This document shows positions 45,877-50,317 of a stretch of DNA of 50,479 bases, piece by piece (the first letter of the stretch is position 1; each line of letters starts with the position of its first letter). Source of the DNA: Desulfuromonadales bacterium (GTDB taxonomy: Bacteria > Desulfobacterota > Desulfuromonadia > Desulfuromonadales > JAHYIW01); NCBI GenBank assembly GCA_029210745.1, contig JARGFI010000019.1, positions 1-50,479 of the forward strand, written 5' to 3'. The position numbers and the translations under genes were made by a program. The notes beneath the pieces were generated by a model. That model had not been told where the DNA came from. It did not search any database and saw only the letters and a program-made list of their open reading frames with translations.

Positions 45877-45909
45877 AAAAAGGCCGGACAGTGATGTCCG
45901 GCCTTTTTT
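45877..45909 (+). terminator. Bidirectional intrinsic terminator
   Basis: GGCCGGACA (45882-45890) pairs perfectly with TGTCCGGCC (45895-45903) around GTGA, flanked by five A on the left and six T on the right. It lies 40 bases after the zinc-ribbon gene and 66 bases after the end of the minus-strand gene at 45975, so it can end both converging transcripts. Confidence 0.95.
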
Positions 45910-45974: not shown

Positions 45975-46352
45975 TCAGGGTGCCGGACCAAATTTGAGTT
46001 TTTCTGAAGAGCCGAAGAAGTAGTCAAACATCTCGGCGGAAGACATGCCGGTGGGCATGAGGACAAAGATAACAAGGGCATAAACCAGGGCAAGAGCGAA
46101 AATCCAGTTAATGATGTTGGTCAGGTGCAACCAGTCTGAATCAGTAATCCGGTCCTGATCATCCTCGGTAACTTCGCTTTTTTCCGTAGGCACGGAAAGT
46201 TTTTCCATAATACGTCCCGAAAAACAAAACAGCAGGGCGGTAATGGAAAACTGCGGCAAAAGCTCGGGAGAAACGTGCCCCTGGCTCAACAGCAACCCAT
46301 AAAGGCCCATTCCGCAGAATCCCAGAAGTGTCATTTGACGACTGATTCCCAC
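45975..46352 (-). CDS. Small membrane protein, function unknown
   Basis: A 125-residue protein with three predicted TM segments: MTLLGFCGMGLYGLLLSQG (about residues 7-25), LPQFSITALLFCFSGRIM (32-49) and INWIFALALVYALVIFVLM (83-101), with an acidic cytoplasmic or periplasmic loop EKSEVTEDDQDRITDSD between the last two. No family was recognised. The start is GTG 46352 or the ATG six codons later (MTLLG); neither has an ideal binding site. It has its own sigma70-type promoter at 46413-46441. Confidence 0.7.
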   Translation of the reverse strand: MGISRQMTLLGFCGMGLYGLLLSQGHVSPELLPQFSITALLFCFSGRIMEKLSVPTEKSEVTEDDQDRITDSDWLHLTNIINWIFALALVYALVIFVLMPTGMSSAEMFDYFFGSSEKLKFGPAP

Positions 46353-46472: not shown

Positions 46473-47249
46473 TTACAGCCGGGTTTTGAGCAGGACTCTG
46501 CTGGCGGGATGCCATGCAACGACATTGTCAGCAAAGGCGGTTGCCAGATAGATCCCGCCGACCACGGCCAGTCCGAGCCCTGTTGCAATTGTTGGTGCGG
46601 ACGCTGGATTGATGATGAACAGTAGTGTGCCAAGGGCACAGAGAATAATCGTTGCCGGCAGACCGTATGCCGGGACCCCTGTCCGTTGCAGATAAGAATG
46701 CGCGAGAATAGCGTAAATGATCCAAAGGATGCAGAAGACGATCGCAGCGGTTGGCGAGGGGGGGGACAACAAGCTATATCTGGGGAGTGCCAGCAGGCTT
46801 ATAATGGTCAGAAAGAAAATTGCTGCCGGAATTTGCAGGGCGGCGACCAGTGCCAGGTTGCCACTGCGCCCCCGGAACCCCTGAATCGTCAGGGTAGCGG
46901 CCGCACCGAGGCCGAGGAGCAGTAACCACGGCCAGAAGGGCGGTGCAACATTGAGTAACATCAGGCCGATGGCCAAGGTAACACTGCCGAAGCCGAGCAT
47001 GCTGTGGCGGGTAAAGCCGGTATCTGCATGGTGGCCGGTTTTTTCATTTGCTGCTGGTGGTGGGAAATGTCCGCGCCGTGAAACATTGTTGCGATCGAGC
47101 AATTCGCCATATTTATTACAGGCGGTGTGACAACCGAAGCAAAGAGTCACGATACGCGATACATCGGACGGAGAGATATAACCGCAACCAACATCACAAA
47201 TGTCTTCATCAACGCCGTAGAATGGACAGTGACTGGATTTTTTCGTCAT
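46473..47249 (-). CDS. Cysteine-cluster protein with six TM segments, probable target of the two-component system
   Basis: A 258-residue protein. Residues 1-60 are soluble and Cys-rich: HCPFYGVDEDICDVGCGYIS, then LCFGCHTACNKY, with seven Cys or CH positions that could bind a metal. Similar CDVGxGYISP clusters recur in other deltaproteobacterial proteins by my recollection, function unknown. The CFGCH looks like a heme c site, but there is no signal peptide, so cytoplasmic zinc or iron-sulfur binding is more likely. About six TM helices follow (residues 85-250). ATG 47249 has GGAG six bases upstream. A sigma54-type promoter and two dyad sites lie upstream, next to an NtrC-type regulator gene. 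Confidence 0.75.
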   Translation of the reverse strand: MTKKSSHCPFYGVDEDICDVGCGYISPSDVSRIVTLCFGCHTACNKYGELLDRNNVSRRGHFPPPAANEKTGHHADTGFTRHSMLGFGSVTLAIGLMLLNVAPPFWPWLLLLGLGAAATLTIQGFRGRSGNLALVAALQIPAAIFFLTIISLLALPRYSLLSPPSPTAAIVFCILWIIYAILAHSYLQRTGVPAYGLPATIILCALGTLLFIINPASAPTIATGLGLAVVGGIYLATAFADNVVAWHPASRVLLKTRL

Positions 47250-47299
47250 CACGCACTCCGTTTTCAGTGAAGTTAATATCTGCTGTCAGCACTCTATTG

Positions 47300-47315
47300 A
47301 GCAAAGGCTGTTCCA
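47300..47315 (-). promoter_or_regulatory. Sigma54-type (-24/-12) promoter
   Basis: On the minus strand TGGAACAGCCTTTGCT matches the consensus TGGCACGN4TTGCW at 10 of the 12 specified positions, with the essential GG and GC exactly ten bases apart. The GC is followed by about 12 bases to a likely start near 47290, leaving a leader of about 40 bases before ATG 47249. Its neighbour gene encodes a sigma54 activator. Confidence 0.72.
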
Positions 47316-47407
47316 GAATCGCTGGCGTCATGCTGAAAATATTTTTAATGTAATATCGGTGAGTTATGTTGCAGAGGTAAAAAGTTGCGGAATGCGCTGG
47401 CAGAGCT

Positions 47408-47461
47408 CTTTTCGCGGATGCGCAAATCATTGGTAAATACGATTTGCGCATCCGCGAAAAG
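47408..47461 (-). promoter_or_regulatory. Two inverted 18-bp dyad sites, probable activator binding sites
   Basis: A perfect 21-base inverted repeat (47408-47428 and 47441-47461) with a 12-base spacer. Each arm contains a near-perfect dyad of pattern TTTKCGC-N4-GCGMAAA (47409-47426 and 47443-47460), centres 34 bases apart. This is about three helix turns, as in NtrC-type enhancers. The sites lie about 130-160 bases upstream of the predicted sigma54 start. The polarity (T on the left, A on the right of the stem) is wrong for an intrinsic terminator in either direction. It begins five bases after the regulator stop. Confidence 0.65.
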
Positions 47462-47465
47462 GGAA

Positions 47466-48839
47466 TCAGGTGACCGATTCCTTGGTAATTCCGTATTTCT
47501 TCATTTTACGATAAATGGTCGCCATATTCATCCCGGCGAGTTTGGCGGCTTCTTCAACATTCCCTTCAGTGCGACGTAGCAGCCCGCAGAGGTAGTCAAT
47601 CTCGAAACGTGCCAGTGACGAGGTGTAACCGGCTCCACTGCTGCTGGGTTCCCCCTGTTCATGCGGTATTTCCATGATCTGATTCAAGGTGGAGAGGCTG
47701 ATATGCGATCCCGTTTCAATCGTCAGGCAGGCTTCAATGACGTTCGCCAGTTGACGGATGTTCCCCGGCCAGTCATGCGTGGTCAACACACGCAACGCTT
47801 CGGGGGTAATGCCCTGAAAGGTGGTGGCAAACTTTTCGTTGCAGGTACGGATGAAATGGGTGACCAGTATCGGGATATCCTCGCGCCGTTCGCGCAGCGG
47901 CGGCAAGCGGAGTTTGATGACATTGATGCGATAGAAAAGGTCCTCGCGAAACGTCCCGCGACTGACGTCTTCACTCAGGTCCGCATTGGTTGCGGTGATC
48001 AGACGCACATCGACTCGGGTCGGCCTGGTGTCACCGATGCGCATAAACTCCTGTTCCTGCAGAAAACGCAGCAAGGTTTTCTGGACAGTCAGCGGCAGGT
48101 TGCCTACTTCGTCGAGAAACAGGGTGCCGCCATCAGCTTCTTCGAGAAGCCCCTTGCGATTTTCCGTGGCCCCGGTAAAAGCTCCCTTGCGTGAGCCGAA
48201 CAGCTCGCTTTCAAGGACCGATTCAGGGAGCGCGCCGCAATTGATGGCGACAAACCGCTTGTCGTGACGCGTCGAATTATAATGAATCGCCTGGGCAATC
48301 AGTTCCTTGCCACTCCCCGATTCGCCGGTAATCAACACCGATGTGTCGCGAACGGCGATCTTTTCAACCTTGAGCAGCAGCTCGCGCAACGCTGCCGAAT
48401 TGCCGATAATGCGATCAAATTTGAAACGACCGGTCAATTCCTGGTGCAGATGGTGGTTTTCAACCAGTAATTCGTTGGTTTTCAGCGCGTTTTTGACGCG
48501 GTAAAGCAGTTCTTCAGGCTCAAACGGCTTGGTCAGCATGTCATAGGCACCCTTGCGGAGCGCCTGAATCGACATGTCCACGGTGGCAAACGCGGTAATG
48601 ATAATCACCGGGAGCAACGGTGCCTTGTCCTTGACGTGTTGCAGAACTTCAAGCCCGTCCATCCCCGGCATTTTGATGTCGGTCACGACGACATCCCAGT
48701 CGGCAGGGGAAAAACGCCGCATGGCCGCGACCGGGTCAGTAAAAGCGGTAACCTCATAGCGTTGATCTTCGAGGATTGCGGTCATCATCCGACACAGCCC
48801 TTCCTCGTTGTCGATTAACAGAATGCGTTTTCCAGTCAC
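47466..48839 (-). CDS. Sigma54-dependent response regulator (NtrC family)
   Basis: A 457-residue regulator with three domains. The receiver (residues 1-120) has phospho-acceptor Asp54 in VVTDIKMPG, Thr in TAFA and Lys in LTKPFEP. The AAA+ sigma54 activator domain (about 140-375) has Walker A GESGSGKE, the sigma54-contacting GAFTGA in RKGAFTGATENRKG, and FLDEVGNLPL. A Fis-type helix-turn-helix lies at the end (NVEEAAKLAGMNMATIYRKM). The start is GTG, overlapping the kinase stop by four bases, so it is the partner of that kinase. It probably activates the sigma54 promoter at 47300 through the dyad sites at 47408-47461. Confidence 0.96.
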   Translation of the reverse strand: MTGKRILLIDNEEGLCRMMTAILEDQRYEVTAFTDPVAAMRRFSPADWDVVVTDIKMPGMDGLEVLQHVKDKAPLLPVIIITAFATVDMSIQALRKGAYDMLTKPFEPEELLYRVKNALKTNELLVENHHLHQELTGRFKFDRIIGNSAALRELLLKVEKIAVRDTSVLITGESGSGKELIAQAIHYNSTRHDKRFVAINCGALPESVLESELFGSRKGAFTGATENRKGLLEEADGGTLFLDEVGNLPLTVQKTLLRFLQEQEFMRIGDTRPTRVDVRLITATNADLSEDVSRGTFREDLFYRINVIKLRLPPLRERREDIPILVTHFIRTCNEKFATTFQGITPEALRVLTTHDWPGNIRQLANVIEACLTIETGSHISLSTLNQIMEIPHEQGEPSSSGAGYTSSLARFEIDYLCGLLRRTEGNVEEAAKLAGMNMATIYRKMKKYGITKESVT

Positions 48840-50317
48840 AAAGATTCCTCCTGAATCAGCGGTAGCCTGATCCGAAACGTCGTCCCTTTTCCGGGAACAC
48901 TGCTGACTTCAATCGATCCATGATGCATGTCGACAATCTGTTTGGTGATCGCCAGACCGAGCCCCGTCCCCTGTTCACGTGTGGTGAAAAAGGGCTCAAA
49001 GATATTGTCCAGATGCTCCGCTGGAATCCCGCATCCGGTGTCGCTGACCTCAAGCAGCAACGTCTGCTCTTCGCGACTGGTGCGGATCGTCAACAGACCG
49101 TGTCCTTCCATGGCGTTGCCGGCGTTAAGAATAAGGTTGATCGTGATCTGGCGGAAGAGATCACCGTCGATCGCCAGGGGGGGGAGCGTTTCATCCAGAT
49201 CGACCTTGAAATTGACCGAGCGCAACTCGGTATGATTGGCCGCGAAAGCTGTGATCTGGCGGAGGAGGTCGTTGACATCCTCCTCACGCAGTGTCGGTTT
49301 AGGCATGCGGGCATAACTGAGCAGATCCTGAACGATTTTTTTACAGCGCTTGCTTTCGCGTTTGATTTCGTGAACGTAGTTGTAGTAAGGGGAATCGGTC
49401 TCCAGTTTGTTTTCCAGATAAGCGGCATAGCCCAGAATCACTCCCAGCGGGTTGTTGATTTCGTGGGCCACGCCACTCGACAAGACGCCGAGGGAAGCCA
49501 TCTTTTCCTGATGTGCCAGTTTCATTTCGATTTCACGATTGTTGTCGATCATACCGATCATACGATTGAACGCCTGGGCCATTTCACCCAGTTCATCCTG
49601 ACGCGTTGCAGAGACACGGACGGCAAAGTTGCCTGACTTGACCTGGCGAATCGCCTCCATCATGCGCGCGACCGGTCGCGTCAGCAGCCGGGTGGCCCAG
49701 ATAACCAGCGGCACAAAGAGGCAGGTCATGAGGATGGTCAGGATCAGCATGCTGATGAAACTGCGCCCCTTAATGCGGTTTGCGGCATCGTAGAACTCGT
49801 CTTCGTAGGAACCGACGGCCACGATCCAGTTCAGCGTTTCGACATAACGGTAGCGAGCAATTTTCATCCGCGGGCGGGGGTCAACATCGTTCTTCCACGG
49901 GTAGCGAATCCAGCCGTTTTTCTTTTCACACATCTCGCGAATGAAATAATTGCCTGATGAGTCACGCGCATCGATGAAATTCTGGCCTTCATTTTCCGGA
50001 TGGATGGTAAAGGTCCCGTCGGTGGTCATGGCATAGATATAACCGGTTTTGCCGACCTGTTTGCTCTTGATCTGCTCTTTCAGTTTGGCGAAGGCGCGTT
50101 CCTCAAAGGCAAGATCATCGTAGGTTTCATCGAGATAGCCGCTGACTGCGATGATCCAGTCCCAGGCCGGAAAATAACGGTAGGCGGCAATTTTCAACCG
50201 TGGACGGTCAGCGGGTGACAGGTTACTGCTCCACGGATAAGTGATGAAATTCACTTTATCCGGTTCCGCCTGCTTCGCGCTTTCAATCAACTCGCGAATA
50301 AATAGAGCCTGTCCCAT
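48836..50317 (-). CDS. Cache-domain sensor histidine kinase, probably truncated at the N-terminus
   Basis: The 493 residues hold two Cache_2-type repeats (4-66, with FIRELIESAK and ITYPWSSN; and 121-176, with FIREMCEKKN and IRYPWKN), one TM helix (about 186-208), HAMP (209-262), HisKA with His285 (SSGVAHEINNPLG), and an HATPase domain (NLILNAGNAM, DTGCGIPAEHL, FFTTREQGTGLGLAI). The first Cache repeat starts at the first residue and lacks its front half. No TM helix or signal peptide precedes it, and an in-frame TAA directly precedes the ATG. A periplasmic sensor needs that anchor, so the gene looks broken. It overlaps its regulator by four bases. Confidence 0.85.
   Translation of the reverse strand: MGQALFIRELIESAKQAEPDKVNFITYPWSSNLSPADRPRLKIAAYRYFPAWDWIIAVSGYLDETYDDLAFEERAFAKLKEQIKSKQVGKTGYIYAMTTDGTFTIHPENEGQNFIDARDSSGNYFIREMCEKKNGWIRYPWKNDVDPRPRMKIARYRYVETLNWIVAVGSYEDEFYDAANRIKGRSFISMLILTILMTCLFVPLVIWATRLLTRPVARMMEAIRQVKSGNFAVRVSATRQDELGEMAQAFNRMIGMIDNNREIEMKLAHQEKMASLGVLSSGVAHEINNPLGVILGYAAYLENKLETDSPYYNYVHEIKRESKRCKKIVQDLLSYARMPKPTLREEDVNDLLRQITAFAANHTELRSVNFKVDLDETLPPLAIDGDLFRQITINLILNAGNAMEGHGLLTIRTSREEQTLLLEVSDTGCGIPAEHLDNIFEPFFTTREQGTGLGLAITKQIVDMHHGSIEVSSVPGKGTTFRIRLPLIQEESL

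Follow-up and report, generated by a model that had tools for sequence, protein, structure and literature searches.

What is the function of a perfect inverted repeat that separates the gene for an NtrC-type regulator from a gene for a membrane protein in a Desulfuromonadales bacterium? We analysed the stretch of DNA that contains it (50,479 nucleotides, referred to here as the window) together with loci and genomes of related bacteria. Comparison of these sequences indicates that the repeat is likely to be a conserved pair of binding sites for the adjoining regulator, and that this regulator appears to activate genes for acetate-type transporters in many related iron- and sulfur-reducing bacteria.

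Layout of the locus and state of the kinase gene

The original prediction had placed a kinase gene, an NtrC-type regulator gene, the inverted repeat, a sigma54 promoter and a membrane protein gene in this order on the minus strand, and our re-examination gave the same series, as follows:

48836..50317, minus strand: sensor histidine kinase with Cache, HAMP, HisKA and HATPase_c domains, 493 aa (Pfam; comparison with the sister species)
47466..48839, minus strand: NtrC-type response regulator and sigma54 activator, 457 aa (Pfam; motif residues; orthologs)
47408..47461, no strand: perfect 21-bp inverted repeat with a 12-bp loop, holding both dyads (sequence; comparison with the sister species)
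47443..47458, no strand: candidate distal enhancer dyad, TTYGCG-N4-CGCRAA, centre -161.5 (alignment with relatives)
47411..47426, no strand: candidate proximal enhancer dyad, centre -129.5, exact reverse complement of the distal dyad (alignment with relatives)
47301..47315, minus strand: predicted sigma54 -24/-12 promoter, predicted +1 about 47289 (sequence; unchanged in the sister species)
46473..47249, minus strand: target protein with a 5-Cys N-terminal domain (about residues 1-55) and a diverged six-helix SatP-type domain, 258 aa (alignment, profiles, model)
45975..46352, minus strand: small membrane protein, 125 aa, probably the operon's second gene (at four other fetched loci, relatives are encoded close to genes of these kinds)

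The start used for the target gene was the ATG at 47249, the listed reading frame opening with a GTG at 47252; the predicted +1 lies 40 nt before this ATG. In the promoter, TGGAACAGCCTTTGC (47315..47301), GG and GC are exactly ten bases apart, as had been claimed, and this GG-N10-GC form of the -24/-12 element is kept in relatives. The 125-aa protein had no match in a Pfam search, and shares 34-36% identity with small ORFs at four loci (L161, L162, L163 and L166), where they lie near MFS or Cys-SatP genes. A strong hairpin (AAAAAGGCCGGAC..GTCCGGCCTTTTT, 45877-45908) is found between two convergent ORFs, and is probably a two-way terminator.

The kinase in the window contains 493 residues, compared with 654 in the sister species (genome G001); its N-terminal part is missing, and homology ends near position 50306. 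Parts of the final 165 nt of the window reappear on five other contigs, four of which share the first 62-65 nt, and this repeat at the contig end behaves as an insertion element would. The missing 5' region of the kinase gene was mostly not found in the assembly, 82 nt of its upstream flank being present on contig C74. A predicted MFS target in the same genome is split between contigs C110 (L158) and C52 (63-659), and C110 opens with the same repeat. Judged from these arrangements, both the sensor kinase, truncated by the IS-like repeat, and one target look as if they have been interrupted by an insertion element in this genome; the assembly is a draft, and may be mixed or misassembled here.

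Paired dyads upstream of a -24/-12 element

The arms of the inverted repeat (47408-47428 and 47441-47461) are each 21 nt long, 100% complementary and 12 nt apart, so that the perfect 21-base symmetry described initially is correct. It had been resolved into two dyads of the form TTTKCGC-N4-GCGMAAA with centres 34 bases apart. The presence of two dyads stands; their register was one base off, and alignment with relatives now places them at 47411-47426 and 47443-47458, with centres 32 bp rather than 34 bp apart; counted from the predicted start, these centres are at -129.5 and -161.5. Aligned in this way, they read TTCGCGGATGCGCAAA and its reverse complement (TTYGCG-N4-CGCRAA). The 2.72-Mb genome contains the sequence TTTKCGCN4GCGMAAA twice, each time within the window repeat (reversed control 0), and the tandem form was found in 2 of 98 genomes searched, i.e., this one and its congener G001, in which the arms of the repeat are identical to those in the window and two bases of the loop differ. 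Because the two genomes with the tandem form both belong to this genus, the exact pattern was rejected as a general motif. The proposed new specificity is not private to this locus: the window sequence is a G/C variant of a widespread dyad with the consensus TTTGCA-N4-TGCAAA in relatives. Perfect 21-bp symmetry was likewise rejected as a requirement, since most relatives lack it.

Conservation of the dyads next to orthologous regulators had been set as a test beforehand, and the enhancer and promoter reading passes it. Of 30 loci fetched in a first set, 18 (from 18 distinct genomes, the window included) have the regulator gene directly upstream of the membrane protein gene on the same strand; the other 12, with no regulator within flanks of at most 1.5 kb, were excluded from the dyad count. 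All 18 intergenic regions contain dyads with two mismatches or fewer, 16 of them within one mismatch. Copies of TTTGC-N6-GCAAA in these regions comprised 15 exact, 21 one-mismatch and 13 two-mismatch sites, compared with shuffle means of 0.08, 0.80 and 6.5 (maxima 1, 3 and 13). Two loci (L020 and L023) contain two-mismatch copies only, and such copies alone are near the shuffle level.

A second set, which shares organisms with the first and is not independent of it, consisted of 80 named loci encoding the Cys domain (the best 80 of 121 relatives), 72 of which had usable upstream DNA. Five (L077, L089, L107, L108 and L118) were dropped for want of a regular-expression match to the Cys domain, and three (L044, L096 and L098) because there was too little upstream DNA. 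At least one dyad with no more than one mismatch was present in 70 of the 72 regions upstream of the Cys domain (mean 3.95, maximum 10, in 100 dinucleotide shuffles), and at least two were present in 63 (mean 0.09, maximum 1, again in 100 shuffles); L047 and L122 had no dyad within one mismatch. A later scan found dyads before the Cys ORF in all five loci that had lacked the regular-expression match. When spacers of 1-12 bp were scanned, the 6-bp spacer gave 173 sites and every other spacer at most 24. Where neighbouring dyads were less than 40 bp apart, the commonest distance was 32 bp (13 cases), with 28 cases at 31-33 bp. Exact tandem pairs were found in 16 of 96 genomes (reversed control 0); the window genome and its congener fall outside these 16, both carrying G/C-rich variant dyads.

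The strict promoter element TGGN8YTGC was present in 50 of the 72 regions upstream of the Cys domain (shuffle mean 4.1, maximum 10). Among the other 22, a hand count gave 18 with a TGGCA-type -24 element and RTGC at 107.5-131.5 bp from a dyad, this being a less strict test, run without a shuffle control; L090, L104, L120 and L122 lacked this combination. In 32 of the 51 regions scored, the window and its congener among them, 129.5-134.5 bp separate the centre of the proximal dyad from the predicted start; smaller groups lie near 120 and 110 bp. Distances that differ by about one turn of the helix suit activators bound on one face of the DNA, the phase statistic being only moderate (R = 0.45 at 10.5 bp versus 0.40 at 11.5 bp, from 19 unique distances).

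Regulator, Cys domain and further predicted targets

As expected of an NtrC-type protein, the regulator contains a receiver domain, a Sigma54_activat AAA+ domain and a Fis-type HTH (HTH_8) by Pfam, with the phospho-acceptor D54, GESGSGKE at 172 and GAFTGA at 219. Its best NCBIfam matches, AtoC (447 bits; cut-off 714) and NtrC (418.5 bits; cut-off 558.6), both scored below the curated cut-offs. A single ortholog per genome (E below 1e-150) was found in 69 of 96 genomes, its own included, with 62-98% identity outside its own genome. In the presumed recognition helix NMATIYRK predominates; the complete rows include variants at one residue and a single variant at two. Comparison with G001 gave 38 synonymous and 7 non-synonymous codon differences, which argues that the regulator has been under constraint. 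Regulator and Cys domain (match threshold E <= 0.001) were both present in 69 of the 96 genomes and both absent in 23; four contained the Cys domain only and none the regulator only (Fisher test, 2e-18, uncorrected for relatedness). The four genomes with the Cys domain only (G054, G061, G093 and G094) are drafts of 170-520 contigs. Because each of five genera (g4, g27, g36, g40 and g43) contains both-present and both-absent genomes, the two appear to have been gained or lost together more than once.

The target had been described as an uncharacterised six-TM protein with a Cys cluster. Six long helices are indeed predicted, with the Cys cluster at the N terminus; the protein is not wholly uncharacterised, since both the Cys domain and a diverged SatP-type (GPR1/FUN34/YaaH) domain can be recognised. 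Residues C8, C18, C22, C37 and C44 were invariant in 21 aligned sequences, and an MFS fusion outside that alignment (L163) has alanine at the third cysteine position. Profile comparison of the Cys domain in the window with that of its relatives gave 99.7%. By sequence searches, this domain is new to Pfam, in which it has no name, and is tied to unrelated families of transporters.

The complete window protein matched no Pfam family (PF01184 was not above the gathering score), and an NCBIfam search was unproductive. PF01184 was detected in six of seven non-MFS Cys-domain relatives scanned (L005, L012, L014, L016, L019 and L028), with no match in the seventh (L006); the other two relatives scanned, L022 and L030, are MFS_1 fusions. 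A family profile built mostly from relatives matched the SatP structures 5ys3 and 5zug at about 1e-44, and the membrane half of the window protein matched the SatP part of its relatives weakly (61 columns, probability 55%). In a low-confidence predicted model with six long helices (pLDDT 67), made from an alignment that included SatP relatives, SatP chains ranked first and second by Foldseek with non-significant E values of 0.13 and 0.18. The window protein also lacks the NPAPLG stretch of its clearest relatives. From its position and family we regard it as SatP-derived; with no Pfam match, weak SatP similarity and no NPAPLG, it may not transport acetate.

The switch had been called self-contained, and this does not hold, because two further -24/-12 promoters in the same genome carry dyads. 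The motif TTYGCRN4YGCRAA occurred there at 11 sites (reversed control 4), i.e., two in the window, two before the MFS gene on C110 (-131.5 and -257.5), one at -299.5 before an alpha/beta hydrolase-like gene on contig C70, and six with no convincing -24/-12 element nearby. A TTTGC-N6-GCAAA site is additionally present in the C70 region, at -131.5 (all of these distances were measured by hand). Allowing one mismatch made the motif unspecific genome-wide (169 sites versus 101 in the reversed control). The hydrolase-like relatives in G068 and G072 likewise come with a promoter and paired dyads; in all, such a gene with dyads and a -24/-12 element was noted in three genomes (L159:2572-3396, L164:4138-4998 and L165:2886-3698; 39-43% identity). 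The name "hydrolase" was read from the sequence and not from a family search, and such a gene is an unexpected member of a transporter regulon.

Across the 80 loci, the 45 kb upstream of those Cys domains that the regular expression identified hold 137 degenerate sites, versus 58 in 766 kb elsewhere. Many of these 58 are followed by a SatP, MFS or further Cys-domain ORF, frequently with a promoter about 120 or 131 bp away. In G023 and G070 the regulator gene is followed by three dyad-plus-promoter units, which precede an MFS gene, a plain SatP gene and a Cys-SatP gene; we take these MFS targets to be of the OFA type, Pfam assigning them to MFS_1. At the Oryzomonas japonica locus (L057), a SatP gene with its own dyads and promoter follows the Cys ORF, and in a Geobacter sp. 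(L051) an MFS gene does so, with a gene for an AMP-binding ligase nearby. In Citrifermentans bremense (L080) the Cys domain has a short ORF of its own, which lies downstream of the two-component system and for which a Pfam search was unproductive. DUF485 and sodium:solute symporter (SSF) genes some 2 kb beyond it are linked by adjacency only, the degenerate-site scan of the 80 loci listing no dyads before them. At three Geobacter-type loci, the stand-alone Cys ORF is separated from the transporter genes by an ORF for a 349-aa protein (L080:6545-7594, L063:6617-7666 and L051:6590-7639), the L080 and L051 copies of which had no Pfam match.

A candidate regulon, its rivals and known systems

We consider it highly probable that these elements constitute a two-component sigma54 regulon, in which the regulator reads the dyads and the targets are carboxylate transporters and the 5-Cys domain. 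The Cache-domain kinase encoded upstream would phosphorylate the regulator, for which the two dyads would be the upstream activator sequences. We infer that the regulator binds dyads of the TTTGCA-N4-TGCAAA type about 130 bp upstream of -24/-12 promoters, where its AAA+ domain would open the sigma54-RNA polymerase complex. In Desulfuromonadales and Geobacter-type bacteria the regulon would comprise transporters whose presumed substrates are carboxylates (SatP family and OFA-type MFS), with the 5-Cys domain fused or alongside, and perhaps, by adjacency only, the DUF485 and sodium:solute symporter proteins. In the window, the switch would drive the Cys-domain/SatP-derived membrane protein and probably the small membrane protein encoded behind it. 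The signal may be acetate or a carboxylate like it, either its presence or its limitation. The enhancer and -24/-12 reading of the original prediction has thus gained from conservation and co-occurrence, with corrections to the motif, the target, the self-containment and the state of the kinase.

Could the repeat instead act mainly as an RNA hairpin, at the 3' end or as an attenuator of the regulator transcript, rather than as a protein site? It starts 4 nt past the regulator stop codon, and it folds very stably as RNA (-48 kcal/mol, z = -10). Moreover, the spacer tetranucleotides of paired dyads were exact reverse complements in 9 of 52 neighbouring pairs (mean 1.0, maximum 5, in 2000 permutations; 7 of 50 pairs without this genus, some pairs coming from close relatives), which suggests, from the sequences, that the palindromes or paired arms have been perfected repeatedly (homogenised) by some process. 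However, the spacers were not exact reverse complements in the other 43 pairs, while each dyad keeps its own symmetry. Dyad-promoter distances are similar where the fetched flank shows no regulator ortholog (L051, L057 and L066), and dyads also precede SatP and MFS genes. The repeat has no U-tract and is not listed by a terminator scan (loops of 3-8 only), for which reasons it was also rejected as an intrinsic terminator. We therefore regard the hairpin as very improbable. It is also improbable that the dyads serve another regulator, i.e., a repressor or a different sigma54 activator, with the neighbouring regulator acting elsewhere. Paralogs are numerous, with 10-165 first-look candidates per genome, but the regulator and the Cys gene agree in their presence or absence in 92 of 96 genomes, they are adjacent in 18 genomes with one ortholog per genome, the recognition helix is near-invariant, and the distance to the promoter is typical of sigma54 systems.

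That the regulon is real and its theme something other than acetate, e.g., another carboxylate, or a redox or metal response conferred by the Cys domain, is a possibility that we rate as less likely and yet take seriously. The 5-Cys domain travels with unrelated transporters, the SatP-type part of the window protein is strongly diverged, and the predicted targets include a hydrolase-like gene. The range of the OFA-type and SatP families takes in several small carboxylates, which also counts in its favour. On the other hand, the SatP genes with sites point to acetate or a close analogue, as do, by adjacency only, the DUF485 and SSF genes of L080 and the AMP-binding ligase gene of L051.

Returning to the proposed regulon of the adjoining regulator, this resembles NtrC/AtoC-type systems in its receiver, AAA+ domain with GAFTGA, Fis-type HTH and kinase partner, and in dyads 100-200 bp upstream of -24/-12 promoters. 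It differs from them in scores below the NCBIfam cut-offs, in the dyad sequence and in a regulon of transporters. The targets resemble SatP/GPR1-FUN34-YaaH acetate-succinate transporters in the six relatives matching PF01184, the profile match to 5ys3/5zug and the six predicted long helices, and are unlike them in having an N-terminal 5-Cys domain with no Pfam match, the window copy itself being below threshold. The sigma54 regulome of Desulfovibrio vulgaris, as set out in the main texts of two reports (PMC4641369, PMC3333781), likewise contains two-component sigma54 regulons with mostly palindromic sites. Unlike the present case, those main texts, as distinct from the logos in their figures, contain neither TTTGC nor GCAAA, the accessible text mentions no SatP regulon, and D. 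vulgaris belongs to another order.

In Geobacter, the acetate symporters AplA-D also serve acetate uptake, group I being highly transcribed under acetate limitation; unlike SatP, they belong to the sodium/solute symporter family, and the accessible text names no activator for them (PMC7894505), which makes the present regulator of interest. A relationship between Apl and the C. bremense DUF485-SSF genes, downstream of the two-component system and Cys ORF, is a candidate only. Possibly counting against a sigma54 transporter reading, the accessible part of a study of the oxalate-formate antiporter gene GSU2490 of Geobacter sulfurreducens reports an RpoD start and, by primer extension, no -24/-12 start, a sigma54 promoter having been predicted beforehand (PMC2725144). 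A sigma54 two-component regulon is of a known kind, and searches of the open-access PMC literature gave no description of the motif, the regulon or the Cys domain.

We tentatively suggest, with somewhat less confidence than doubt, an undescribed two-component sigma54 regulon for carboxylate entry in Desulfuromonadales/Geobacter-type bacteria, its hallmark being a new five-cysteine domain that is associated with unrelated acetate-type transporters (SatP, OFA-type MFS and perhaps DUF485/SSF) and that may gate uptake in a metal- or redox-dependent manner. Acetate is one of the main fuels of those bacteria in this group that respire iron or electrodes. A DNA code that can be read, a single ortholog per genome and a brief list of targets open the control of carboxylate entry to direct tests, and the system exposes a small Cys domain, as yet unnamed in Pfam, with ties to transporter families that are unrelated to one another.
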